A stretch of DNA of 38,105 nt from positions 1 to 38,105 of the forward strand of contig JAIOAU010000025.1 in assembly GCA_019873655.1 (NCBI GenBank), given 5' to 3'. Position 1 is the first letter of the stretch, and each line of letters starts with the position of its first letter. The stretch comes from Chloroflexota bacterium. GTDB taxonomy: Bacteria; Chloroflexota; Anaerolineae; Anaerolineales; Villigracilaceae. Positions 7,300-18,974 of the stretch are shown here, piece after piece. The notes under the pieces were generated by a model. That model was not told the origin of the DNA. It searched no databases and saw nothing but the letters and a program-made list of their open reading frames with translations. The translations under genes and the position numbers were made by a program.

Positions 7300-8037
7300 C
7301 TACTTCAGCGACTGGCGCAGGCCTTCGAGTTGGGCAGCGACCGAGCCGTCCAGCACCTTGTCGCCGACCTTGATGACCAGCCCGCCCAGGATGGACGGGT
7401 CGACGCGGAAACTGACCGTCGCCTGCTTGCCCATCTTCGCCAGGACGTCCTTCTTGACGGCCTCCTGCTCGTCCTTCGTCAACGGCAGGGCGGAGATGAC
7501 TTCGGCGGCCGCGCCGCTCACCTCCGCGCCCTCCAACACGACCACCTTGCCGGCCTTGACGCCGGAGAAGAACTCGTTGATGAGGGCGTGCTGGCGCTTC
7601 TCGTCCAGCGCCTCGCCGACCAGTTTCTGCGCCGCGGCGATGGCCAGCGCCGCCACCTGGCCGCGCAGGTCGCTCAGCAGACGGTTGCGCTCGCCCTCGG
7701 CCTCGGCCAGGGCGTTTTCGCGGGCTTTGGCGATCTCGGCCTCGGCCGCAGCGCGGACGTCCTTAGCCGCCGCCTCAGCGCGTTCGGTCGCCTCGCGGAT
7801 GAGTTGCGCGGCTTTGCCCTGGGCCTCGGCAAGGATTTTGGCCGCTTCCTTCTCGGCGTTTTCACGCGCCTCGGCTGCCACGCGGGCGTCTTCCATGCCC
7901 TGGGCAATCTTCTCGCGGCGCTTTTCGAGGCTGCGGACAATCGGCTTGTAGGCCCAGGCGTAGAGCAAAATCACCATGACGGTGAAGTTCAACACCTGGA
8001 AGATGAAGAACCCCAGATTGATACCGAGTTTTTCCAT
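7300..8037 (-). CDS. atpF: F0F1 ATP synthase b subunit fused to a delta C-terminal domain
   Basis: This 245-residue protein is longer than the usual b subunit of about 160. Residues 8-30 form one membrane helix. Residues 35-150 are a long Ala/Glu/Arg-rich coiled coil, the peripheral stalk. Residues 165-245 look like the C-terminal domain of the delta subunit, with 'VSFRVDPSILGGLVIKVGDK' and 'VLDGSVAAQLEGL' matching the usual LIGG...G...DGSV...L pattern. The N-terminal helical bundle of delta that binds F1 alpha is absent. Mycobacteria have a known b-delta fusion, but there the whole delta is joined. The gene is last in the operon, 18 bases after atpE, and is followed by a terminator. Confidence 0.9.
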   Translation of the reverse strand: MEKLGINLGFFIFQVLNFTVMVILLYAWAYKPIVRSLEKRREKIAQGMEDARVAAEARENAEKEAAKILAEAQGKAAQLIREATERAEAAAKDVRAAAEAEIAKARENALAEAEGERNRLLSDLRGQVAALAIAAAQKLVGEALDEKRQHALINEFFSGVKAGKVVVLEGAEVSGAAAEVISALPLTKDEQEAVKKDVLAKMGKQATVSFRVDPSILGGLVIKVGDKVLDGSVAAQLEGLRQSLK

Positions 8038-8055
8038 CGGAACTCCTTCCGGGTA

Positions 8056-8298
8056 TTAGCCGACGAAGATGATGATCAGGGCCACCGCCAGGGCGTAAAT
8101 GGCGACCGCTTCGGCAAAGGCCATGCCCAGAATCATGTTGGTCTGGATGATGGGCGCGGCGTCGGGGTTGCGGCCCATGGCCTGCACGCCGCCCGAAGCG
8201 GCGATGCCCACGCCCGCGCCGGCGCCGATGGCGCCCAGCATGGCGATGCCCGCGCCCAGAAGTTTCAAACCGTCAACGAAGAATTGATTGAATTCCAT
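8056..8298 (-). CDS. atpE: F0F1 ATP synthase c subunit
   Basis: This 80-residue hairpin of two membrane helices forms the rotor ring. Helix 1 has the Gly-rich packing motif 'GAIGAGAGVGIAASGG', the loop has 'RNPDAAP', and helix 2 carries the ion-binding Glu63 in 'GMAFAEAVAIYALA'. The Gln in helix 1 and the Ser/Thr after Glu that mark sodium-binding rings are absent, so proton use is more likely. A good ribosome-binding site (AAGGAGAG) precedes the ATG. It lies between atpB and atpF in standard F0 order. Confidence 0.96.
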   Translation of the reverse strand: MEFNQFFVDGLKLLGAGIAMLGAIGAGAGVGIAASGGVQAMGRNPDAAPIIQTNMILGMAFAEAVAIYALAVALIIIFVG

Positions 8299-8328
8299 GG
8301 TTCTCTCCTTGAGGTAGGATGTTATTTT

Positions 8329-9378
8329 CTAGTGATGTTCTTCATGGCCGTGGGCCACAGTCGCCCCGCTGAGGAAGATGGTCGCCAGCAGGAAGAAGAC
8401 GTAGGCCTGGATGACGCCAAAGAAGACCTCGAACAGATACAACCCGGCCGGGACGGCGACCGCCGTCAACGCGCCGACGATGGACAGCAGCAGCGCGCCG
8501 GCGAAAATGTTGCCAAATAGACGGAAGCCAAACGAGAGGATTTTGGCAAACTCCAGAACAACTTCGAGCAAGCCAACGCCGAAGTTGATCATGCCAAAAA
8601 TGCCGCCGTTGACGAGTTGCTTGAACTGGAAGAACTTCTCGAAATACTTCGGCCCCTGCGCCCAGACCCCGAAGACCTGCGTCAACAGGACGGTGGTGAC
8701 GGCCAGCGCGAAGGGGAAGTTGATGTCCGTCGCCGTGCCACGCAGGAAGGGGACGACCTCGCAGGCCGTGCAGGGCGCGCCCTCGGCGGCGTGTTCCTCG
8801 GTCGCGGTCGCGTGTTCCTCCCCGTGCGCCTCGGCCTCGACCGGATGGCCCTTGTCAATCGTCCAGAGGGTGAAATCGCCGATGTGCAGGAGCGCCACCG
8901 GCGCGTAACCCGTCCCCTCGTGGACCTGCTTGATGCGGCCGATGCTCTCGAAACCCGGCACCAATTTGACCATGTTGGCCGTGAAGATGAGCAAGAAGAT
9001 GGTCGCGACGATGGGGAAGATGCGCTTGGCCCACTTGCCCGCCGATCCCTGCACCGTGTTCCAGAGGAACTCCACAATGGCCTCGAAAGCGTTCAGGAGG
9101 CCTTTCGGCGCTTCCTCGCTTCTGCGATAGTGACGGTAAGCAAAGATCGCTAAGATAATGAGCAGGATATCGGTCAGCAGAGTGGCGGCGATGGTGTTGG
9201 TGATGGGGAAACCAAAGACTTCCAGTCCGGTTTCTTCAGGCGGCAAGACGACCACCGGACTGATGGGTTTCAAAATCGAGGGTCCAATAAACGCGGCGTA
9301 AATCCCCAGGGCAAACAGCCCGAGGATGATCGTCGTCTTGATATGGAAACGCTTCTTGGGTTTTGCTTCGCTGCTCAC
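8329..9378 (-). CDS. atpB: F0F1 ATP synthase a subunit with His/Cys-rich loop
   Basis: This 349-residue stator subunit forms the proton half-channels. The essential stator arginine is R286 in 'ILSFGFRLFGNIFAGALLL', and the last helix has 'GVIQAYVFFLLATIFLSGA'. It starts with GTG at 9376-9378, three bases after the stop of the upstream AtpZ-like gene. Between the early helices and the 'DINFPFALAV' helix there is an extra loop (about 176-210) with His178, 185, 189 and 196, many Glu residues and a CTAC pair (Cys203, Cys206). The C-terminus is also His-rich (HGHEEHH). The family function is secure; the loop is unusual and may bind a metal. Confidence 0.95.
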   Translation of the reverse strand: MSSEAKPKKRFHIKTTIILGLFALGIYAAFIGPSILKPISPVVVLPPEETGLEVFGFPITNTIAATLLTDILLIILAIFAYRHYRRSEEAPKGLLNAFEAIVEFLWNTVQGSAGKWAKRIFPIVATIFLLIFTANMVKLVPGFESIGRIKQVHEGTGYAPVALLHIGDFTLWTIDKGHPVEAEAHGEEHATATEEHAAEGAPCTACEVVPFLRGTATDINFPFALAVTTVLLTQVFGVWAQGPKYFEKFFQFKQLVNGGIFGMINFGVGLLEVVLEFAKILSFGFRLFGNIFAGALLLSIVGALTAVAVPAGLYLFEVFFGVIQAYVFFLLATIFLSGATVAHGHEEHH

Positions 9379-9381
9379 CCG

Positions 9382-9678
9382 TCAATCCTCCTTTTCGTCA
9401 GATTGGGTTTTGCTGGAGGCAATCGGCGGAGGCGGCAGAGTCTGCACGGCCCGCATCGCCAGCCGGAAGGTCAGGAATAAAGAAAGCGGCCCGACCGCGA
9501 CCACCAGCGCAATCAGAATGGCGTGGCCGGTGCCGAGCAGTTTGTCCAGCCACTGACCGCCAAAGACCGCGCCCAGAATCAGGATCAGGCTCAGGCCGGC
9601 GATCTGCGCGGCCAGACTCCCCATCCGGTTGAGGAGAGCCGGGAGGGAGTAGTTCGAGCGTTTTTCGGGTTCGGTCAT
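9382..9678 (-). CDS. AtpZ/AtpI-like small membrane protein
   Basis: This 98-residue protein has two membrane helices (about 23-45 and 52-74) and a charged C-terminal tail. The 'GGQWLDKLLGTG' segment between the helices is typical of the AtpZ/AtpI group encoded first in atp operons; members are linked to c-ring assembly or Mg2+ uptake. Its place directly before atpB agrees. No Shine-Dalgarno is seen; a TGA-TATAAT box lies 9 nt before the ATG, so the operon mRNA may be almost leaderless. Confidence 0.8.
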   Translation of the reverse strand: MTEPEKRSNYSLPALLNRMGSLAAQIAGLSLILILGAVFGGQWLDKLLGTGHAILIALVVAVGPLSLFLTFRLAMRAVQTLPPPPIASSKTQSDEKED

Positions 9679-9713: not shown

Positions 9714-11153
9714 CTAGAACAGCGTCGCGGCGGCCTGTTCGGCAAAACCGAACCAGGGTCCGAACAACGTGCCGAGCAGCAGAATGCCCACCGCCAGGAC
9801 GACGACCGCCGCCGCCACCGGCCGCGAGACCGGGACGGGATGTTTCTCCTCGTCCTCCCCTTCCATGCGGAAGAGGTAAACGTACTTCAAGACGTTCAGG
9901 TAGTAGTACAGGCCGACGATGGAGTTCAGCACGCCGACAAAGGCCAGCCAGACCCAGTTCGAGTTCACCGCGGCCAGGAAAACGTAGAACTTGGCAATGA
10001 AGCCGACGAAGGGCGGCATGCCGGCCAGCGAGAGGAAGGCGACCAGCATCGCCAGCGCCAGCGGCGCATTGCGGCGGCTGAGGCCGTTATAGGCGGAAAA
10101 TTCATCCGAGCCGGTCACTCGACCGACGATGGCCACCACGCCGAAGGCCAGCAGGTTGGTCAGGACATAGGCGATGAGATAAAAGGCCACGCTGGTCATG
10201 CCCAGTTGCGAGAAGGCGACCACGCCAATCAGGGCATAACCGGCATGGGAAATCGAGGAATAGGCCAGCAGGCGCTTGACGTTCTTCTGCGCCAGGGCGA
10301 TCAGGTTGCCGACCGTCATGGTCAGGGTCGCCAGGATGGCGAGGATGAGGCTCCAGTCGGCGTTCACGGCCGGGAAGACCGCCGTGAAGAGACGCATCAG
10401 GACGGCAAAACCGGCCGCCTTCGAGGCGGTGGAGAGGAAGCCGGCCACCGGGGTCGGCGCGCCCTGATAGACATCCGGCGCCCAGAAATGGAACGGGAAG
10501 GCCGAGACCTTGAACGCCAGCCCGGCCAGGACGAGGAAGGTGACGCCCGCAGCCAGCAGATTGAAGTCGCCGAAATGGAGCGCCAGCGCATACAGACCGG
10601 TCTCGCCGGTAAAACCGTAGGCCAGGCTGAAGCCGTACAGAAGCACGGCAGAGGCCATCGCCCCGAAGAGCATGTACTTGAAGCCCGCCTCGATGGACTT
10701 GTCGTCCTCTTTCATGAAACCGGCCAGGACGTAGAGCGGGATGGAGGCCGTCTCGATGGAGAGGTAGAGCATCACCAGGTCGGCGGCGGAGGCCATGAGC
10801 GACATGCCCAGGGTGGCGGCGACCAGCAGGAGGTAGGCCTCGGCGCGGCGGGCGAGTTTTTCCTCGTCCATGAAGAAGAGGGCTGTGACGGCCGCGGCAA
10901 AGAGGAAGAACATCTTGAAGAGGAAGCCCAGCCCGTCGAAGCGAATCATGCCGCCGTACACCAGGGCAGGCTCGGCCGGTCGGGCGAGGAGCAGGCTCAG
11001 GGTCAGCGCGACGAGCAGACCGGCCGCGGTGAACCAGCCCAGGAACGGGCGGCGCGCCTCGTCGCGTTTCACGAACGGATCGAGAATCAGAATCAGGACG
11101 CCCAGCGCCAGGAGCAGGATCTCAGGGAAGATGGGCAGGACGAAGTTCATCAA
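9714..11153 (-). CDS. nuoN: NADH-quinone oxidoreductase subunit N
   Basis: This 479-residue antiporter-like membrane subunit of complex I has about 14 helices. The channel residues are present: the TM5 glutamate in 'LYLSIETASIPLYVL', the TM7 lysine in 'LAGLAFKVSAFPFHFWAPDV' and the TM8 lysine in 'STASKAAGFAVLM'. The 'APDVYQGAPTPVAGFLST' segment is specific to NuoN as opposed to NuoL and NuoM. Its ATG overlaps the stop of the second nuoM by 4 bases, so the two are translationally coupled. It is the last gene of the cluster. Confidence 0.95.
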   Translation of the reverse strand: MMNFVLPIFPEILLLALGVLILILDPFVKRDEARRPFLGWFTAAGLLVALTLSLLLARPAEPALVYGGMIRFDGLGFLFKMFFLFAAAVTALFFMDEEKLARRAEAYLLLVAATLGMSLMASAADLVMLYLSIETASIPLYVLAGFMKEDDKSIEAGFKYMLFGAMASAVLLYGFSLAYGFTGETGLYALALHFGDFNLLAAGVTFLVLAGLAFKVSAFPFHFWAPDVYQGAPTPVAGFLSTASKAAGFAVLMRLFTAVFPAVNADWSLILAILATLTMTVGNLIALAQKNVKRLLAYSSISHAGYALIGVVAFSQLGMTSVAFYLIAYVLTNLLAFGVVAIVGRVTGSDEFSAYNGLSRRNAPLALAMLVAFLSLAGMPPFVGFIAKFYVFLAAVNSNWVWLAFVGVLNSIVGLYYYLNVLKYVYLFRMEGEDEEKHPVPVSRPVAAAVVVLAVGILLLGTLFGPWFGFAEQAAATLF

Positions 11154-12625
11154 ACACCTCCCAGCAGGGCAAGGATGTGTCGGACGCCCGAAAGGACCCA
11201 GGGTTCCATCAGGGCCGGGATCAGGCCGATGCCGATCATGAAGGCCATCAGCAGCACGAGAGCGGTTTTGTCGAAGACGTTAATCGGCGGGATGTGGCCC
11301 TCGAATTCCTCGGGCATTTTGCCGAAGAAGACCCGGCGGACGACCAGCAGGACGTAGGAGGCGGTCACCACAATCGAGATGGCGGCGATGAGCGCCATCC
11401 ACCACAGGTCCGTATGCCAGATGCCGCGGAAGATGGGGAATTCGGCCACGAAGCCGGAGAAACCCGGCATGCCCATCGAGACCAGGCTGCCGACGATGAG
11501 GCCGATGCCCGCCAGCGGCAGGGGCTTGATCATCCCGCCCAGTTTGGGGATGTCGCGGGTGTGGGCGCGGTCATAGACCATGCCGACAACGGCAAAGAAG
11601 AGGGCCGTCATCACGCCGTGGGAGAACATTTGCAGGCCGGCGCCGAGCAGGCCGTCCTGGTTGAGGGTGGCAAAGCCCATCATCACCAGCCCCATGTGCG
11701 AGACGGAGGAGAAGCCGATGACGTATTTGAAGTCGGTCTGCACGCTGGCGATGAACGCGCCGTAGACGATGTTGACCAGCGCCAGCGACATGATGAGCGG
11801 AGCCCAGAATTTGGCCCCCTCCGGCAGGAGCATGATGCCGACGCGCAGGGCGGCGAAGGCGCCCAGTTTCATCAGCACGCCCGCATGGAACATCGAGACG
11901 GCGGTCGGGGCGGCGACGTGGCCGTCCGGCGACCAGTTGTGGAAGGGGAAGATGCCGCCCAGCACCGCAAAGCCGAGGAAAACCGGCAGGAACCAGGTCT
12001 TCTGGAATTCGGGCGTGAATTTGACCGTCTCCAGCACCAGCAAATCGAAGGTACGCGCGCCGCTGGTGAAGTACATGACCAGCGCGCCGACCAGGGCAAT
12101 GACCGAACCGACGAACAGGTAGAGGGTCAGTTTCATCGCCGCGTACTCGCGGGTCTTCACCCAGCCCCAGATGGCGATGAGCAGGTACATCGGGAAGACG
12201 GCGATTTCGTAGAAGAAGAACAGCATGAACAGGTCGAGCGAGGCAAAGACGCCGAAAACGCCCGAAGCCAGGATGAACAGGAAGGCAAAGAATTCGCGCG
12301 GCCGGTCTTCGATGCCCCAGGAAATCATCACGCCGGTCGCCATGACCACGCCGGTCAAGAGGACCAGCGGTACGGACATGCCGTCCACGCCAAAGTGCAG
12401 GCTGATGCCCAGAGCGGGAAGCCAGTCATATTTCTCGATGAACTGGTAGCCGCCAACCGCCTTGTCATACGCAAAGTACACCCAGAAGGAAAGCGCCAGC
12501 GCAATCAGACCGGCAGCCAGCGCGGTCCAGCGGACGGCTTTTTTCCACTCCGGCTTGTAGGTCAAAATGATGAGACCGGCGGCCAGCGGAATGAAGACGA
12601 TAACGCTCAGGAACGGAAATTGCAT
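11150..12625 (-). CDS. nuoM: NADH-quinone oxidoreductase subunit M, second copy (NuoM2)
   Basis: This 491-residue antiporter-like subunit is recognisable as NuoM from 'MLFFFYEIAVFPMYLL' with the TM5 Glu140, 'SPDGHVAAPTAVSM', 'AGVLMKLGA' with the TM8 Lys253 and 'SSVSHMGLVMMGF'. The TM7 lysine (E. coli K234), expected 31 residues before Lys253, is Leu222 in 'FAVLGGIFPFHNW', and no lysine lies nearby. In the neighbouring NuoM1 both lysines are kept at the same spacing. So this copy may not move protons by the usual path. It lies 11 bases after NuoM1 and overlaps nuoN. The two copies are clearly diverged, not a recent duplication. Confidence 0.93.
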   Translation of the reverse strand: MQFPFLSVIVFIPLAAGLIILTYKPEWKKAVRWTALAAGLIALALSFWVYFAYDKAVGGYQFIEKYDWLPALGISLHFGVDGMSVPLVLLTGVVMATGVMISWGIEDRPREFFAFLFILASGVFGVFASLDLFMLFFFYEIAVFPMYLLIAIWGWVKTREYAAMKLTLYLFVGSVIALVGALVMYFTSGARTFDLLVLETVKFTPEFQKTWFLPVFLGFAVLGGIFPFHNWSPDGHVAAPTAVSMFHAGVLMKLGAFAALRVGIMLLPEGAKFWAPLIMSLALVNIVYGAFIASVQTDFKYVIGFSSVSHMGLVMMGFATLNQDGLLGAGLQMFSHGVMTALFFAVVGMVYDRAHTRDIPKLGGMIKPLPLAGIGLIVGSLVSMGMPGFSGFVAEFPIFRGIWHTDLWWMALIAAISIVVTASYVLLVVRRVFFGKMPEEFEGHIPPINVFDKTALVLLMAFMIGIGLIPALMEPWVLSGVRHILALLGGV

Positions 12626-12636
12626 GACAACCTCGT

Positions 12637-14193
12637 TTAGAACAGCATCATCACGGCTTTGTTGATCACGTCCAAAATCCAGGCCGGGTACAGGCCGATG
12701 ACGAGGATGAGCGCCATCAGCGGGGCCATGACCACGATTTCACGCGTGTTGATTTCGGTCAGTTTGTGTTCGCCATGCGCCCAGTGTTCGTTCAGCGGGC
12801 CGTGCAGCACCTGCTTGATTCCCTTCAGGATGTACGCGCCGGTGAAGAGCAGGCCGATCATGGCAATCGCCGTGTAAACGGTCAAAATCGGCCAGGAACC
12901 CCGCACCACCAGGAACTCGGAGACGAAGCCGTTCAGTCCCGGCAGGCCGAGCGAGGCCATGCTGGTGAAGATGAGAATGCCGCCATAGACCGGCACGAGC
13001 GGGAAGAGGCCGCCGAAATCGTCCAGGTTGCGGGTGTGTGTCCGTTCATAGATGACGCCGACCAGGAAGAACATGCCCGCCGCCGAGAGGCCGTGGTTGA
13101 ACATCTGCAAGACCGCGCCGTTCATGGCAATCGTCGCATCGAGCGTGCCGGACGCTTTGGCGGCCGCGGCAATGCCGAGCAGGACGAAGCCCATGTGGTT
13201 GACCGAGGAATAGGCCACCAGGCGCTTGAAATCTTTCTGCCCGTAGGAGGCAAACGCGCCGAAGACAATCGCCATCACCGCCAGGAAGGCCAGCGCCCCG
13301 GCGTAGCGCGCCGATTCCGCCGGATAGAGCGGCAGGACGAGGCGCAGGAAGCCGTACGCGCCCAGTTTCAACAGGACGCCAGCCAGAATCATCGAACCGG
13401 CGGTCGGGGCTTCGGTGTGGGCGTCGGGCAGCCAGGTATGGAACGGCCAGACCGGGACCTTGATGGCAAACGCCACCACGAAGGCCCAAAAGGCCACCGT
13501 CTTGACGGTCGCGACGGGCAGGCCGAGCAGAGTCCCCTCGAGGGCGGTCCATTTTTCGGTCAGGACAGGCAGGTCATAGGTCTGGAAGAGGACGCCCAGG
13601 AGCTGAATCGCCAGCAGGAGGCCGAGCGAACCGGCCATGGTGTAAATCATGAACTTGAGCGAGGCGTAGTTGCGCGCCTGGACTTTGACGCCCTTCCACA
13701 GTTCGCGCTCGCCCTTCTCGCTCCCCCACTGGTTGATGAGGAAGTACATCGGGACGAGGCCGACTTCCCAGAAGACGAAGAAGATGAGCAGGTCGAGCGC
13801 CAGGAAGACGCCCAGCATGCCCGTCTCCAGCAGGAGGAAGAGGAACATGTAGGCCTTGACCCGGTCGCTGACGCTGAAGGAGGCCAGCAGGGCGACGGGC
13901 GTCAGGAGCGTGGTCAGCAGGACCATCGTCAGCGAAATGCCGTCCACGCCGAGGTGCAGGCTGGAGTTGAGCGCCGCGTACCAGACGTATTTCTCTTCGA
14001 ATTGAAAACCGGGCTTGCCGGGTTCGAACTGCACCCAGAGATAGATGCTCAACGCCAGCGGAATCAGGCTGAGGGCGAACGCCGTCCAGCGCGTGACCTG
14101 GGGCTTGTCCTTCGGCAGGAACAGCACAATCACCGCCGCCAGGACGGGGAAGAACAGGATGAGGGTCAGGATGTGAGCGTGAATAAATTCCAT
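12637..14193 (-). CDS. nuoM: NADH-quinone oxidoreductase subunit M, first copy (NuoM1)
   Basis: This 518-residue antiporter-like subunit has all the canonical channel residues: Glu143 in 'FFVFWEVGLVPMYFL', Lys245 in 'AFAIKVPVWPFHTWLPDAHT' and Lys276 in 'AGVLLKLGAYGF'. The TM8-loop stretch 'QKDFKRLVAYSSVNHMGFV' is also standard. It pumps protons in the distal part of the membrane arm. It precedes NuoM2 directly and follows nuoL after an 87-base gap that holds two hairpins. The ATG is preceded by TATGGAG. Confidence 0.95.
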   Translation of the reverse strand: MEFIHAHILTLILFFPVLAAVIVLFLPKDKPQVTRWTAFALSLIPLALSIYLWVQFEPGKPGFQFEEKYVWYAALNSSLHLGVDGISLTMVLLTTLLTPVALLASFSVSDRVKAYMFLFLLLETGMLGVFLALDLLIFFVFWEVGLVPMYFLINQWGSEKGERELWKGVKVQARNYASLKFMIYTMAGSLGLLLAIQLLGVLFQTYDLPVLTEKWTALEGTLLGLPVATVKTVAFWAFVVAFAIKVPVWPFHTWLPDAHTEAPTAGSMILAGVLLKLGAYGFLRLVLPLYPAESARYAGALAFLAVMAIVFGAFASYGQKDFKRLVAYSSVNHMGFVLLGIAAAAKASGTLDATIAMNGAVLQMFNHGLSAAGMFFLVGVIYERTHTRNLDDFGGLFPLVPVYGGILIFTSMASLGLPGLNGFVSEFLVVRGSWPILTVYTAIAMIGLLFTGAYILKGIKQVLHGPLNEHWAHGEHKLTEINTREIVVMAPLMALILVIGLYPAWILDVINKAVMMLF

Positions 14194-14211
14194 CGTTTAC
14201 TCCATAGGAGT

Positions 14212-14273
14212 CCGACGTCTCCTGACGTCGGGCGGGAGTCTCCAGAGGCTTGTCCGAAATCTGGAGATTTCGG
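14212..14273. repeat. Two small hairpins between nuoL and nuoM1
   Basis: CCGACGTC-TCCT-GACGTCGG (14212-14231) and CCGAAATC-TGGA-GATTTCGG (14254-14273) are perfect 8-bp stems with tetraloops, 22 bases apart. Neither is followed by a T-run. They may set mRNA stability between the two genes or be dispersed repeats. Confidence 0.6.
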
Positions 14274-14280
14274 AGTCCGG

Positions 14281-16419
14281 CTACACAATCAGGAAGTAAT
14301 ACAGCACAGCAAAAATAACCAGCAAGACCATCGAAACTACCATGTAATACTGCACGCGTCCGGTCTGGATGAAGCGCAGTCCCCTGCCGGAGGCCTTGAC
14401 CAGGTTGCCGGTCCCGTCGCCGATGAGTTCGTTGACCACCGGCTTGTCGAAGTAGTTGCGGAAGGCGTGGCCGAGGAAGAGCGAGAAGCGCGCCACGACG
14501 TGCAGGATGCCGTCAATCACGGCGCGGTCCATGAACAGGTACGTGAACTTCTCGGCAATCCAGTAAGCCGGTTTGACGAACAGGAAATCGTAGGCTTCGT
14601 CGAAGTACCACTTGTTCTTCAGCACCGGGATTTGCAATTTGTCTTCGGCGGGCGACTTGACGTTGCGATAGACCAGCCAGCCGAAGAACAGACCGCCGAG
14701 GGCAACCGCCAGAGAGGTCAGGAGCGGCCAGATGCTGAAGGGCGCGGCTTCGGGATGCTCGGCCAGCGTCGAACCGACGAATTCATGGAACCAGTTGGGG
14801 ACCAGTCCGCCGAGGAGCGGGAAATGTTCCGGGATGCCAACCCAGCCGTAGGTCACGGCGAAGAAGGCCAGCACCACGAGGGGCAAAGTCATCGTCCAGG
14901 GCGTCTCCTGGGCGTGTCTGGCTTCCTCCGTGCGCGGCTCGCCGAGGAAGGTCAGCGTAATCTGGCGCATGGTGTAGAAGGCGGTCAGGAAGGCGGCCAC
15001 CGCGAGGGTGATGAAGACCGCCCAGTGACCGTGAGCGAAGGCGTCGGCCAGGATTTCATCCTTCGACCAGAAGCCGGCGGTGATAACCGGGAAACCGGAA
15101 AGGGCAAAGCCGCCGATGAGGAAGGTCCAGAAGGTGATGGGCATCTTCTTGCGCAGGCCGCCCATGTTGAACATGTCCTGCGGGTCCACGTGGTGGTTGC
15201 CCGTGTGCAGGACGCCATGCTCCATGCCGTGAATGACCGAGCCGGAGCCGAGGAAGAGGAGCGCCTTGAAGAAGGCGTGGGTAATCAGGTGGAACGCGGC
15301 GGCCACATACGCGCCGATGCCGAGGGCGGCAATCATGTAGCCGAGTTGCGAGATGGTCGAGTAGGCCAGGACGCGCTTGATGTCGTTCTGGGCGACGGCA
15401 ATCGTGGCGGCGAAGAGCGCCGTGAACGCGCCGATGAAGGCCACGATGGACATCGTCGCCGGGTCGAGGCTGATGAGCGGGAACATGCGGATGACGGCGT
15501 ACACGCCCGCCGAGACCATCGTGGCGGCATGAATCATCGCGCTGACGGGGGTCGGGCCTTCCATCGCGTCCGGCAGCCAGACGTGGAGCGGCCACTGCGC
15601 CGACTTGCCGACCGTGCCGATGAAGAGCAGGAGGCCAATCAAGCCCGCGCCCGAAAGCCCCAGGATGGGGGTCGAGATGCTCGCCAGGTGATGGAGCATT
15701 TCCTCGGTAAAGATTTCGGAGAAGGTCAGCGTGCCGGTCGCCGAGTAGAGAAAGGCGATGCCGAGCAGCATGAACACATCGCCGATGCGGGTGGTCATGA
15801 AGGCTTTGATGGCCGCGTTGCGGGCGGAAGGTTTGCCGTACCAGAAACCAATCAACAGATAAGAGCAAAGTCCCATGATTTCCCAGCCGACGAAGAGCGT
15901 CAGCAGGTTGTTCGAGACGACCAGCGTGTACATGCCGAAGGCAAACAGCCCCAGGAAGGCAAAAAAGCGGCTGTACATCGGCTCGACCGAGGGGACGGTG
16001 TGCTTATGCCCGTGCGCGTCGGTCACCGTCGCGCCGTGCGGCGGCAGGCCCTTGCGGTCGTGGTCGCCTTCCGGCTGGCCGAAGTTATGGTAGCCGATGC
16101 TGTAAATGAAAATCATGAAAATCGTCCAGGCGACGAAGAACAGCACGGCCGCGCCGAGCGGGTCGATGCGCACGCCGATTTGGAACCAGGTCTCGCCGGT
16201 CGGCAGCCAGTTGATGACCGACTCGAAGGCATGTTTGCCGAACTCTTCCACGCCGAGGGCGCGGACGAAAACAAGCATGCTCCCCAGCCAGGAAAGCCCC
16301 GCCGCGCCGACCGCGATGCCGTGGCTGAGCGCCTTGTTCTTATTGGTAAACAGCACAATCAGGAAGAACGCCAGCAGGGGCGGGAGAGGAAGGAACCAGA
16401 TGATCGTCTCAGTTGCCAT
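14281..16419 (-). CDS. nuoL: NADH-quinone oxidoreductase subunit L, extended
   Basis: This 712-residue distal antiporter-like subunit is about 100 residues longer than E. coli NuoL. Channel residues are present: Glu180 in 'LLTLFVGWEIMGLCSYLLI' and Lys272 in 'IGTVGKSAQWPLHVWLPDA'. Two regions account for much of the extra length. A His-rich loop (about 115-147, including DAHGHKH) lies before 'YSRFFAF'. The C-terminal region between 'FVKP' (614-617) and the last helix is about 34 residues longer than in E. coli, with 'RNYFDKPVVNELIGDGTGNL' inside it. That region forms the lateral helix that clamps the other pump subunits, so its length fits two NuoM copies. GGAGG precedes the ATG. Confidence 0.95.
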   Translation of the reverse strand: MATETIIWFLPLPPLLAFFLIVLFTNKNKALSHGIAVGAAGLSWLGSMLVFVRALGVEEFGKHAFESVINWLPTGETWFQIGVRIDPLGAAVLFFVAWTIFMIFIYSIGYHNFGQPEGDHDRKGLPPHGATVTDAHGHKHTVPSVEPMYSRFFAFLGLFAFGMYTLVVSNNLLTLFVGWEIMGLCSYLLIGFWYGKPSARNAAIKAFMTTRIGDVFMLLGIAFLYSATGTLTFSEIFTEEMLHHLASISTPILGLSGAGLIGLLLFIGTVGKSAQWPLHVWLPDAMEGPTPVSAMIHAATMVSAGVYAVIRMFPLISLDPATMSIVAFIGAFTALFAATIAVAQNDIKRVLAYSTISQLGYMIAALGIGAYVAAAFHLITHAFFKALLFLGSGSVIHGMEHGVLHTGNHHVDPQDMFNMGGLRKKMPITFWTFLIGGFALSGFPVITAGFWSKDEILADAFAHGHWAVFITLAVAAFLTAFYTMRQITLTFLGEPRTEEARHAQETPWTMTLPLVVLAFFAVTYGWVGIPEHFPLLGGLVPNWFHEFVGSTLAEHPEAAPFSIWPLLTSLAVALGGLFFGWLVYRNVKSPAEDKLQIPVLKNKWYFDEAYDFLFVKPAYWIAEKFTYLFMDRAVIDGILHVVARFSLFLGHAFRNYFDKPVVNELIGDGTGNLVKASGRGLRFIQTGRVQYYMVVSMVLLVIFAVLYYFLIV

Positions 16420-16429
16420 GAAGCCTCCA

Positions 16430-16453
16430 AAACGTTCAAACGTTTGAACGTTT
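16430..16453. repeat. Perfect 24-bp palindrome between nuoK and nuoL
   Basis: The half-site AAACGTTCAAAC is followed directly by its reverse complement. The unit contains AACGTT twice. It fills most of the 39-base gap between the two genes. It could be a hairpin that tunes nuoL expression or a dispersed palindrome. Confidence 0.65.
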
Positions 16454-16458
16454 CCATA

Positions 16459-16770
16459 TCACCACTTCATCAAATCAATCTCATCGGCCACCACCGTCTT
16501 GCGGCGGCGGTAAACCGCGATAATCAGCGCCAGGCCGACGGCCACTTCCGCGGCGGCGACGGCAAAGACGATGACGGCAAACGCCTGTCCGGCCATCCGC
16601 GCCGGGTCGAGATAGCGCCAGAAGGCCACCAGGTTAATGTTGACGGCGTTGAGCATCAGTTCCACGCTGAGCAGGATGGCAATGGCGTTGCGGCGCGACA
16701 GGACGCCAAACAATCCCACGCAGAACAAAGCAACCGAAAGGAGAAGATACCAGGAAAGCGGAATGCTCAT
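16459..16770 (-). CDS. nuoK: NADH-quinone oxidoreductase subunit K
   Basis: This 103-residue protein with three membrane helices is the usual NuoK size. The two buried glutamates of the proton path are present in 'LLSVELMLNAVNINLVAF' and 'FAVAAAEVAVGLALI'. The frame is open further upstream, but the ATG at 16768-16770 gives the family N-terminus (MSIPLSWYLLLS) and has a GTAGGAG ribosome-binding site. It starts 7 bases after the nuoJ stop. Confidence 0.95.
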   Translation of the reverse strand: MSIPLSWYLLLSVALFCVGLFGVLSRRNAIAILLSVELMLNAVNINLVAFWRYLDPARMAGQAFAVIVFAVAAAEVAVGLALIIAVYRRRKTVVADEIDLMKW

Positions 16771-16777
16771 AACGCTC

Positions 16778-17290
16778 CTACTGTTTCTTGAGGAATGCCA
16801 GGTACACCGCCCCCACCAGCGCCGACAACAGAAGCACCGAGGCGACTTCGAAGGGCAGGACATACGCGTCGGGCGAGACCAGAGCCTTGCCCAGCGCCGC
16901 GACGGGATCGAGGCCGGACGGGAGAGCCGGCGCAACGCGGCCGACGCCGGGCTGAGCCAGAATCAGAGCAGTCAGGCCGGCCAGGATGAGCAGACCGAGG
17001 AGGACCGCAACCGGCCAGTTCCGGCCAATTTGAGCGCGAGATTCGCGCACATCCCGGCGCGTCAACATATCGGCGAAGATGAACATAATGGCAATCGCGC
17101 CGATGTAAATCACGACCTGTATCATGGCCATGAATCCGGCCTGCAAAATCGCATACACGACGGCCACGCCGAACAAGGCGGCAATCAGCCAGAAGGCGGC
17201 GTGCATCAGATTGCGCGCCGTCACCACCATGACCGCCGAGCCGAGAATCAGCCCGGCGCAAACGAGGAATAGGATTTGTGCACCCGTCAT
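16778..17290 (-). CDS. nuoJ: NADH-quinone oxidoreductase subunit J
   Basis: This 170-residue membrane protein has five helices. TM3 contains the family motif 'QVVIYIGAIAIMFIFADML', whose pi-bulge region takes part in coupling electron transfer to pumping. AGGAG precedes the ATG. It follows nuoH directly with 12 bases between; nuoI, which usually sits between nuoH and nuoJ, is missing. An overlapping frame shifted by one base gives no membrane protein and is rejected. Confidence 0.94.
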   Translation of the reverse strand: MTGAQILFLVCAGLILGSAVMVVTARNLMHAAFWLIAALFGVAVVYAILQAGFMAMIQVVIYIGAIAIMFIFADMLTRRDVRESRAQIGRNWPVAVLLGLLILAGLTALILAQPGVGRVAPALPSGLDPVAALGKALVSPDAYVLPFEVASVLLLSALVGAVYLAFLKKQ

Positions 17291-17302
17291 GAGAATCCGC
17301 TC

Positions 17303-18538
17303 CTATTGCTGCGCGGTTGGCGCGCCAGCCTGGGCGCACCCCGTCCCGACGCGGGCAGCCTCCGCTTTGCGCTGTCGGCGTCCGTGGGCGCGCAGGATTT
17401 CGACCGTCGCCCAGGCAATCAAAAGGTTACTGAGGAACAGGCCCGGAACGTACCAATTCGAGCCGTCCAGGACGCGGTCGAGAACCGCGGTCGTCATCAG
17501 CAGGATCAGCGCCAGAGGGGTCAGGAATTTCCAGTTGAAGGCCAGCATATGGTCGATGCGCACGCGCGGCATAGTGTACTTGATCCACATGATGACCCAG
17601 TAGCCGATCAGCGCCTTGAGCATGAACACCGGCGCTTGCACGAAAGGATTGTTCAGCCAGGCAAAGGCAGGCAGGTTCTGCAGGCCAAAGAAGCCGCCGT
17701 AACCGCCAAAGAAAAGGAGAGCCGCGAAACCGCCGAAGGTGAAGGCGTGGAGCAATTCGCCGGCGTAGAACAAGCCGAACTTCATGCCCGAATACTCGAT
17801 GTGGAAACCGGCGATGATCTCCGACTCGGCCTCGTTGAGGTCGAAGGGCGCGCGCCCGAGTTCGGCGACCGCGCTGATCAAAAAGATGACCGCCGCCAGC
17901 GGCGACAGGAAGAAGAACCAGACATTCCCCTGCGCCTCGGTGATGCCGCGCACGCTCATCGTCCCCGCCAGGATGGCAGGAATCAGCAGCGAAACGACCA
18001 TCGGGATCTCGTACGAGATCATCGTCGCCACCATGCGGAAGGCGCCCAGGAGGGCGTATTTGTTGTTCGACGCCCAGCCGCCCATGATGATCGCCAGCGT
18101 CCCCAGCGCGCCGGCCGCCACCAAGTAAAGCAAAGCGACGTTCAAATCCACGCCGTAGATGACCGAGGCCAGCGGCAGAATCGCCCAGAGCAGAAGCACA
18201 GAGGCCAGGGCCAGCACCGGCGCCAGGTTGTACAGGAACTTGTCCGCTCCGGCCGGGGTAATATCTTCCTTGATGATCAGTTTGATGATGTCCGCAAAGG
18301 GCTGCACCAGGCCGAAAGGACCCAACCGATTCGGCCCCAGGCGGTCCTGGAAGCGCGCCACCACTTTCCGTTCCACCCAGACCAGAAAAATGGCGAGCAC
18401 CAGCGAAAAGGTAATGAGCAACAACGCCCCCAAAAGCGCAAGCAAGATATCAGTCATCTGCGCCGCCAGACCCCAGCCGGTCAACAAATCCCTGAGCCAG
18501 TCGGCCGCAAAGCGAATTGGATCGTTCCAAAAAGTCAT
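17303..18538 (-). CDS. nuoH: NADH-quinone oxidoreductase subunit H
   Basis: This 411-residue membrane subunit forms the quinone-chamber floor and links the peripheral and membrane arms. Family signatures are 'WVERKVVARFQDRLGPNRLG', 'IKEDITPAGADKFLYNLAP', the acidic loop 'AELGRAPFDLNEAESEIIAG' and 'EYSGMKFGLFYAGE'. The C-terminus has an extra Arg/Ala-rich tail of about 30 residues. AAGGAG precedes the ATG. Between it and nuoA there is only a 79-base gap with a hairpin, where other genomes have nuoBCDEFG. Confidence 0.96.
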   Translation of the reverse strand: MTFWNDPIRFAADWLRDLLTGWGLAAQMTDILLALLGALLLITFSLVLAIFLVWVERKVVARFQDRLGPNRLGPFGLVQPFADIIKLIIKEDITPAGADKFLYNLAPVLALASVLLLWAILPLASVIYGVDLNVALLYLVAAGALGTLAIIMGGWASNNKYALLGAFRMVATMISYEIPMVVSLLIPAILAGTMSVRGITEAQGNVWFFFLSPLAAVIFLISAVAELGRAPFDLNEAESEIIAGFHIEYSGMKFGLFYAGELLHAFTFGGFAALLFFGGYGGFFGLQNLPAFAWLNNPFVQAPVFMLKALIGYWVIMWIKYTMPRVRIDHMLAFNWKFLTPLALILLMTTAVLDRVLDGSNWYVPGLFLSNLLIAWATVEILRAHGRRQRKAEAARVGTGCAQAGAPTAQQ

Positions 18539-18565
18539 GCGATGCTCCTTGCTTTAAAACAGCGA

Positions 18566-18597
18566 AAAGGCTGAGAGAACATCTCTCGTCAGCCTTT
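18566..18597 (-). terminator. Hairpin between nuoA and nuoH, possible attenuator
   Basis: AAAGGCTGA (18566-18574) and TCAGCCTTT (18589-18597) pair perfectly, and inner GAG/CTC bases extend the stem. On the minus strand it is followed by TTCGCTGTTTT, an imperfect T-run. It could partly terminate transcription after nuoA and lower expression of the rest of the operon. Confidence 0.5.
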
Positions 18598-18617
18598 ATA
18601 CACTTTTTCTTGCAAAC

Positions 18618-18974
18618 CTACGCCCACTCCAGCATTCCTTTCCGCCAGGCATACACCAGGCCAACCACTAGAATGGTGATAAACAGGATGCCTTCCAGCG
18701 CCACAAAAAGCGGCATCTGCTTGAGCGCCAGCGCCCACGGAAAAAGAAAGACGGTCTCGACATCGAAGACCAGGAAAACCAGGGCAAAAATGTAATACTG
18801 CGCCTTGAACTGCACCCGGCTCTCTCCCACCGTTTCCAGACCGCATTCATAGGTGCTCTGTTTGATTGGATTGGGTTTGCGCGGCGCGACCAGGCGGGCA
18901 ATGATGAGCGGCGCAATCGGGATGATGATCCCCACCACCAAGAACAGACCAATGTAAAGCCACTCATGCTGCAT
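18618..18974 (-). CDS. nuoA: NADH-quinone oxidoreductase subunit A
   Basis: This 118-residue protein has three membrane helices. The loop 'PIKQSTYECGLETVGESRVQ' carries the conserved Cys near the quinone site, and TM2 has 'YYIFALVFLVFDVETVFLFP' with the coupling Asp/Glu pair. The frame is open to a TTG at 18989, but GGGAG lies 8 bases before the ATG at 18974, which decides the start. It is the first gene of the cluster, behind its own promoter. Confidence 0.94.
   Translation of the reverse strand: MQHEWLYIGLFLVVGIIIPIAPLIIARLVAPRKPNPIKQSTYECGLETVGESRVQFKAQYYIFALVFLVFDVETVFLFPWALALKQMPLFVALEGILFITILVVGLVYAWRKGMLEWA

Follow-up and report, generated by a model that had tools for sequence, protein, structure and literature searches.

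Complex I with two NuoM subunits (2M complex I) reportedly has a fourth pumping subunit, and Chadwick et al. in 2018 are said to have proposed that it moves a fifth proton per cycle. Here, we analyze an operon of this kind from a Chloroflexota bacterium (assembly GCA_019873655.1, contig JAIOAU010000025.1). Within the stretch of 38,105 nucleotides that was analyzed, referred to below as the window, the operon lies at 9714-18974 on the minus strand and carries nuoA, nuoH, nuoJ, nuoK, nuoL, two nuoM genes, and nuoN, in this order (NCBIfam names). The NuoM copy adjoining nuoL is called M1 and the copy adjoining nuoN is called M2.

The closest described systems are those of other Chloroflexi. The cited portion of PMC7117926 describes a Lost City Chloroflexi metagenome-assembled genome (MAG) and cultured Chloroflexi (Anaerolinea thermophila) with the arrangement nuoLM1M2N, nuoBCDI located apart, and C and D fused. 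The window genome follows the same pattern, with two nuoM between nuoL and nuoN, nuoBCDI elsewhere, and a fused nuoCD. Chloroflexus aurantiacus (PMC3150298) and Chloroflexus aggregans (PMC8004040), as described in the cited parts of these reports, each combine a complete 14-gene set with a further set that contains two nuoM; the window genome likewise has a separate complete 14-gene set, on contig C5, in addition to its 2M set. The layout differs from that of C. aurantiacus, whose second set includes nuoA, B, C, D, and I in the same run (Caur_1976-1987), with a distant nuoF and, within the cited part of PMC3150298, only nuoG missing, whereas B, CD, and I of the window genome are on contig C1. 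Apart from this layout, we found nothing that separates the window from the known Chloroflexi 2M group, and its operon is a further member of that kind.

The 2M complexes of Nitrospira and Complex_I_3 of 'Ca. Manganitrophaceae' also have a second NuoM, together with a 26-residue insertion in the lateral helix (HL) of NuoL (PMC9040806, in the part cited), and the window has a comparable insertion. The 2M cluster of N. moscoviensis lacks nuoE, nuoF, and nuoH, as far as the cited text describes it, whereas nuoH is present in the window. The E. coli Nuo complex and the C5 cluster share homologous L, M, N, A, H, J, and K subunits with the window operon, but both have one NuoM, which carries a lysine in transmembrane helix 7 (TM7), and both include NuoEFG.

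We propose, with a probability of roughly 0.65, that the window encodes the membrane arm of a 2M complex I in which M2 lengthens the arm and acts as a relay, without a canonical lysine-based proton route. Gene content, gene order, conservation, tree placement, and residue loss were observed directly; assembly into one complex, the pairing with the genes of contig C1, the electron donor, and the relay role of M2 are inferred from them.

Gene content and recurrence of the operon

The genes of the operon and the features discussed below are as follows (positions within the window).

18618-18974, minus strand: nuoA, 118 amino acids counted from ATG
17303-18538, minus strand: nuoH, 411 amino acids
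16778-17290, minus strand: nuoJ, 170 amino acids
16459-16770, minus strand: nuoK, 103 amino acids, with its start inside a longer listed open reading frame (ORF)
14281-16419, minus strand: nuoL, 712 amino acids, with a long HL
14377-14613, minus strand: HL of NuoL (residues 603-681), one continuous helix as predicted by AlphaFold2
14413-14493, minus strand: residues 643-669, by which HL exceeds that of cyanobacterial NdhF (6hum_F); an insert of roughly 27 residues
12637-14193, minus strand: nuoM1, 518 amino acids, TM7 lysine retained
13459-13461, minus strand: codon of M1 Lys245, at the position of K234 in E. coli NuoM
11150-12625, minus strand: nuoM2, 491 amino acids, lysine-less NuoM type
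11960-11962, minus strand: codon of M2 Leu222, which replaces the TM7 lysine
11885-11887, minus strand: codon of M2 His247, specific to M2, at the position of L259 in E. coli NuoM
9714-11153, minus strand: nuoN, 479 amino acids, with a TTG start that overlaps the end of nuoM2

Both NuoM scored above the NCBIfam NuoM subfamily cut-off of 263.8 bits (M1, 531.4 bits; M2, 444.5 bits) and shared 41.2% identity across 476 aligned residues, which confirms the original prediction of two adjacent, full-length, and diverged NuoM (518 and 491 amino acids) beside NuoL and NuoN. Their identity to the NuoM of the C5 cluster was 49.2% for M1 and 39.2% for M2. In VIA-align, the window NuoL matched NuoL/ND5 from complex I structures with Z scores of 40.5-45.2 among the 50 matches listed. 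This confirms its identity as NuoL, while the long-helix end was barely aligned. The operon had been presented as a complex I cluster; this holds for the membrane arm (A, H, J, K, L, M, M, and N), but NuoB, C, D, E, F, G, and I are not encoded in the stretch.

To follow the arrangement in related genomes, we used 80 loci selected for their similarity to the window NuoL (identity of 73-95% over the best segment), all from Chloroflexota MAGs and mostly titled Anaerolineales, Anaerolineae, or Chloroflexi bacterium. The complete order A-H-J-K-L-M1-M2-N was found in 59 of them, and the remaining 21 had their missing genes at a contig end, as judged from the contig ranges. For the class and phylum sets, 100 regions were chosen manually out of match lists, partly by the length of open frames, and the shares of long- or short-helix and of one-M or two-M loci given below are thus not population frequencies. 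After 25 of the 182 NuoL rows without NuoN in view had been excluded, 157 Chloroflexota loci were left for the comparison of one-M and two-M loci. L-M-M-N was present in 86 loci over all sets, window included, 65 of which came from the 80-locus set. Such recurrence of the gene order rules out a chance arrangement. The designation of the locus as a 2M-type cassette was borne out, as it matches the pattern of Anaerolinea-like Chloroflexi and both M stay with L and N in all 86 loci. At one locus (L061:9896-13750), nuoL and nuoM1 are separated by a 1284-amino-acid ORF without a clear family assignment.

M2 as a separate NuoM type

Phylogenies were built as quick trees, with support from the Shimodaira-Hasegawa-like approximate likelihood ratio test (SH-aLRT) throughout. 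The NuoM tree had 127 rows, 7 of them from the 80-locus set; the M of locus L229 (more than 900 amino acids) was omitted. M1 formed one clade (98) and M2 another (100), with Anaerolineae loci and locus L197 (genome G185), presumably C. aurantiacus, included. Both copies therefore group with known 2M cassettes, a comparison that the original prediction had put forward as a check. M1 grouped with the NuoM of single-M complexes with a long HL (54 rows, 100), and M2 with the NuoM of short-helix complexes from other Chloroflexota (43 rows, 100; the long-helix L224 is among these rows). A recent tandem duplication of nuoM was rejected, as M1 and M2 forming one clade failed the approximately unbiased (AU) test (p 1.4e-5); a clade of M1, M2, and the M of single-M long-helix complexes was also rejected (p 0.001). 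These p values were obtained with 62 hand-picked rows of the 127, long-branch rows being excluded, and are weakened by the framing of the groups after the first tree had been seen. As judged from its sequence, M2 is a separate NuoM type and no fresh copy of M1.

The NuoM of the C5 cluster fell outside both clades. This bears on the idea that one M of the window serves the cell's other complex I, encoded by C5, where the HL of NuoL spans 82 residues with a single M in the cluster, so that an extra place is conceivable. Since the C5 set is complete in itself, with an M that belongs to neither clade, and since the synteny of M1 and M2 with L and N is conserved, we regard such sharing as highly improbable. 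A second complete cluster that uses one of the window's M copies had been named as the finding that would speak against a 2M complex; the C5 cluster is indeed complete, but it has a NuoM of its own.

The two copies differ at a lysine position regarded as essential for pumping. Positions below follow E. coli NuoM numbering unless stated otherwise. At position 234 in TM7, all 99 M1 sequences had lysine, whereas the 90 M2 sequences had leucine (89) or threonine (1). The single NuoM of Chloroflexota retained the lysine in 70/70 cases (long-helix, 38/38; short-helix, 32/32, counted without L229 and hence not 33). No charged residue was found within 12 positions before or 6 after the leucine in the window M2 and two other M2 that were inspected. 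The lysines of the window NuoL and NuoN are retained. The loss is not peculiar to the window but holds across the known group, L197 included. Other charged residues are kept in M2, namely the TM5 glutamate E144 (90/90), the TM8 lysine K265 (86/90), and the TM12 glutamate E407 (88/90, with two gaps); K265 and E407 have roles of their own in E. coli NuoM. In addition, M2 has its own set of residues, Tyr 143, Leu 174, Leu 178, Ser 244, Gly 247, and His 259 (88-90 of 90 each), the last being a histidine on TM8 specific to M2 (88/90).

According to the cited portion of PMC3046159, mutating the corresponding lysine in E. coli NuoN, M, or L leads to loss of function. With this lysine missing from M2 and its loss inactivating the E. 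coli enzyme, it is doubtful that there is a canonical "fifth proton"; the fifth proton to which the original prediction referred is not supported, with the lysine absent from 90/90 M2. M2 could instead be a true fourth pump that moves a fifth proton per cycle, if the TM8 histidine or another group replaces the TM7 lysine. The retained TM5, TM8, and TM12 residues and the gain of a conserved histidine favor this possibility, as does the occurrence of the M2 type as the only NuoM of three Bacteroidota clusters described below. The loss of the lysine in all 90 M2 sequences, set beside its requirement in E. coli, speaks against it, and we consider a fourth pump possible but doubtful. The loss has a wider bearing, as 2M complexes are cited as possibly moving five protons per two electrons, a claim that needs testing if the added NuoM lacks the lysine on which E. 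coli NuoM depends. We found no published account of a missing TM7 lysine, either in M2 or in the NuoM of Bacteroidota; the founding study of Chadwick et al. 2018 lay outside the coverage of this search, and the loss is not claimed as unpublished.

A tblastn search with M2 in plasmid records (390 records matched) brought up NuoM of Bacteroidota and no 2M cassettes of other phyla among the matches listed. In records of Bacteroides, Prevotella, and Phocaeicola (L232, L233, and L234), the sole NuoM of the complex I cluster is of the M2 type. All three have leucine at 234 and the M2 residues at 143, 174, 178, 244, 247, and 259, while the M2 glycine at 316 was not found in them. In a tree of 53 rows that included them, they fell in the M2 group (14 rows, 100); M2 without Bacteroidota formed one side of a branch with a support of only 75. 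The Bacteroidota complex I thus resembles that of the window in its M2-type NuoM, with leucine at the K234 position and histidine at the L259 position, but differs in having three antiporters, no M1, and a short HL (52 residues in the Bacteroides NuoL, counted by eye). That the M2 type is the only NuoM of these clusters argues that M2 is no dead subunit. It also makes the lysine-less NuoM of the examined Bacteroidota clusters a natural test of the proton-carrying residues in complex I.

The lateral helix of NuoL

AlphaFold2 modeling of the window NuoL with 45 sequences (mean predicted local distance difference test score, pLDDT, 78.5; predicted template modeling score, pTM, 0.78) gave a continuous helix at residues 603-681, followed by TM16 at 689-711; the pLDDT block means of this helix were only about 49-71. 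HL length was measured as the residue count between two conserved anchors, which gave 81 residues for the window, as compared to 48 for E. coli and 82 for the C5 cluster. The HL spanned 77-83 residues in 86/86 two-M loci. Among the 71 single-M loci, it spanned 51-52 residues in 33, 77-82 in 37, and 104 in one. The lengths are therefore stepped, with no intermediates among the 157 loci, and this suggests a simple rule for counting subunit places. The 104-residue HL (L178, G005:C159) resembles three units of about 26 residues and occurs with a single NuoM in the cluster.

The long tail of NuoL, which had been taken as support for a fourth subunit, is real, with an insert of about 27 residues relative to NdhF. 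As evidence for that subunit it fails, since 38 of the 71 single-M loci, including C5 of the same genome, share a long HL, and on these grounds the idea that HL length proves a fourth subunit was rejected. Likewise, the HL insertion of about 26 residues described for 2M complexes is present in the window, though it is not diagnostic. A long HL accompanied two M genes at every such locus seen, yet by itself it proves no fourth subunit. The cited part of PMC9040806 reports that, in 'Ca. Manganitrophaceae', the NuoL of Complex_I_1 and that of Complex_I_2 also carry HL insertions, and holds that these NuoL may already accommodate additional pumping subunits or be in transition; our counts carry this observation over to Chloroflexota.

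These data also bear on whether M1 and M2 are isoforms, alternative occupants of one place in complexes of three antiporters each. A shared operon alone is no proof of co-assembly, and neither is a long HL proof of a fourth subunit. However, the HL is long in all 86 L-M-M-N loci and short in none, and M1 and M2 come from different NuoM clades that are maintained together. We therefore think it improbable that the two copies replace each other and prefer a complex that would contain both.

By best match, 26 of the 38 long single-M loci have a 2M-type NuoL (the 104-residue case included) and 12 a C5-type NuoL. Among the latter, 11 have a different insert and L224 has a third kind. The C5-type insert, of about 30 residues and DWRFWHDWFHD-like, is found in single-M clusters (L011:11094-13235, which is C5 itself, L131, L132, L134, L143, L179, L180, and L212-L215) and seemingly represents an independent lengthening of the lateral helix. 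The internal-repeat score of the HL (best mean z) was 1.5 in two-M loci (offset 27), 3.0 in single-M loci of the 2M type (27), 3.1 in the C5 type (29), and 1.3 in short HL. With these modest scores, an origin of the insert by tandem duplication is suggested only.

In the NuoL tree (102 rows, 10 from the 80-locus set, HL part removed), all 2M-type long-helix NuoL of the set formed one group of 56 (99), with a single-M locus as its deepest row. The Chloroflexia-like two-M rows made up one branch, and the Anaerolineae two-M rows, including the window, lay among single-M rows. One clade of all two-M NuoL was not rejected (AU p 0.188), so that these data do not distinguish one gain of M2 followed by losses from several gains. 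A test by independent pairs for an association between two M and a long HL had 2 pairs on supported branches and no power.

Two genomes, G142 (one contig, 99% complete) and G024 (530 contigs, 93%), each had just three PF00361 matches, namely the antiporter genes of their long-helix cluster, and G072 and G026 had six matches each, three per cluster. A more speculative proposal, which we consider unlikely to hold as a whole, is that the Chloroflexota HL acts as a ruler, its steps of about 26-30 residues setting the number of antiporter places independently of the proton number. The extra place would be filled by the lysine-less relay NuoM in 2M complexes and by a second copy of the same NuoM where a long helix goes with a single M, including in genomes that have no more than three antiporter genes.

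Partner genes and proposed working of the complex

The genome (3.04 Mb, 45 contigs, 99.8% complete) encodes on contig C1 a NuoB (240 amino acids), a fused NuoCD (580 amino acids), and a Fer4 NuoI-like protein (245 amino acids), beside a ParA/NUBPL gene. Contig C5 carries the complete canonical 14-gene cluster, with NuoA to NuoN all present (NCBIfam or Pfam) and one NuoM. NuoE (PF01257), NuoF (PF01512), and NuoG (TIGR01973) had one genome match each, all in C5. Thus, the window operon does not have the NuoE, NuoF, and NuoG of its own that belong to a canonical 14-subunit NADH:quinone complex I, and the electron donor of its complex is probably not NADH directly.

In the proposed complex, four antiporter-like subunits in a row, L-M1-M2-N, would join the proximal subunits A, H, J, and K in one arm and be held together by an HL that is about 30 residues, or roughly the width of one antiporter, longer than usual. 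The quinone-reducing (Q) module would most likely be NuoB-NuoCD-NuoI of contig C1, and the donor may be ferredoxin or, alternatively, NuoEFG borrowed from the C5 complex. M2 would then most probably pass the electrostatic signal on and carry no proton by the canonical lysine route. If M2 is such a relay without canonical pumping, a fifth proton should not be taken for granted.

Several points weigh against this proposal. Given its role as sole NuoM in the three Bacteroidota clusters examined, the M2 type may well be able to pump through a different residue, such as the M2-specific histidine. Long HL are found in single-M clusters as well. The pairing of C1 with the window operon is drawn from elimination and the published Chloroflexi pattern.

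Genome-wide, ten PF00361 matches were found, namely L, M1, M2, and N of the window, L, M, and N of C5, two on contig C38, and a weak orphan on contig C3. The C38 ORFs (830 and 510 amino acids) were taken as putatively Mrp-type, as judged by size. The C3 orphan (L014:3782-5179) is a divergent antiporter-like protein of 465 amino acids (PF00361, 62 bits) in a run with ORFs of 518 and 213 amino acids, neither of which has a Pfam match. Comparable weak partial matches occurred in at least 11 of the 23 genomes searched. The idea that a C3-like orphan generally supplies an extra subunit to single-M complexes with a long helix was rejected, because G024 and G142 showed no PF00361 gene outside their cluster.

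ATP synthase genes follow directly after nuoN on the same strand (7300-9678).

9382-9678, minus strand: small membrane protein that begins 36 bases past nuoN
8329-9378, minus strand: atpB (F0 subunit a); the best models are those of F0F1 ATP synthase subunit A, under their own cut-offs

The small ORF had no NCBIfam match and was taken as atpI by its position only. Among the 54 related loci with more than 1.3 kb beyond nuoN, atpB was found downstream of nuoN on the same strand in 49.

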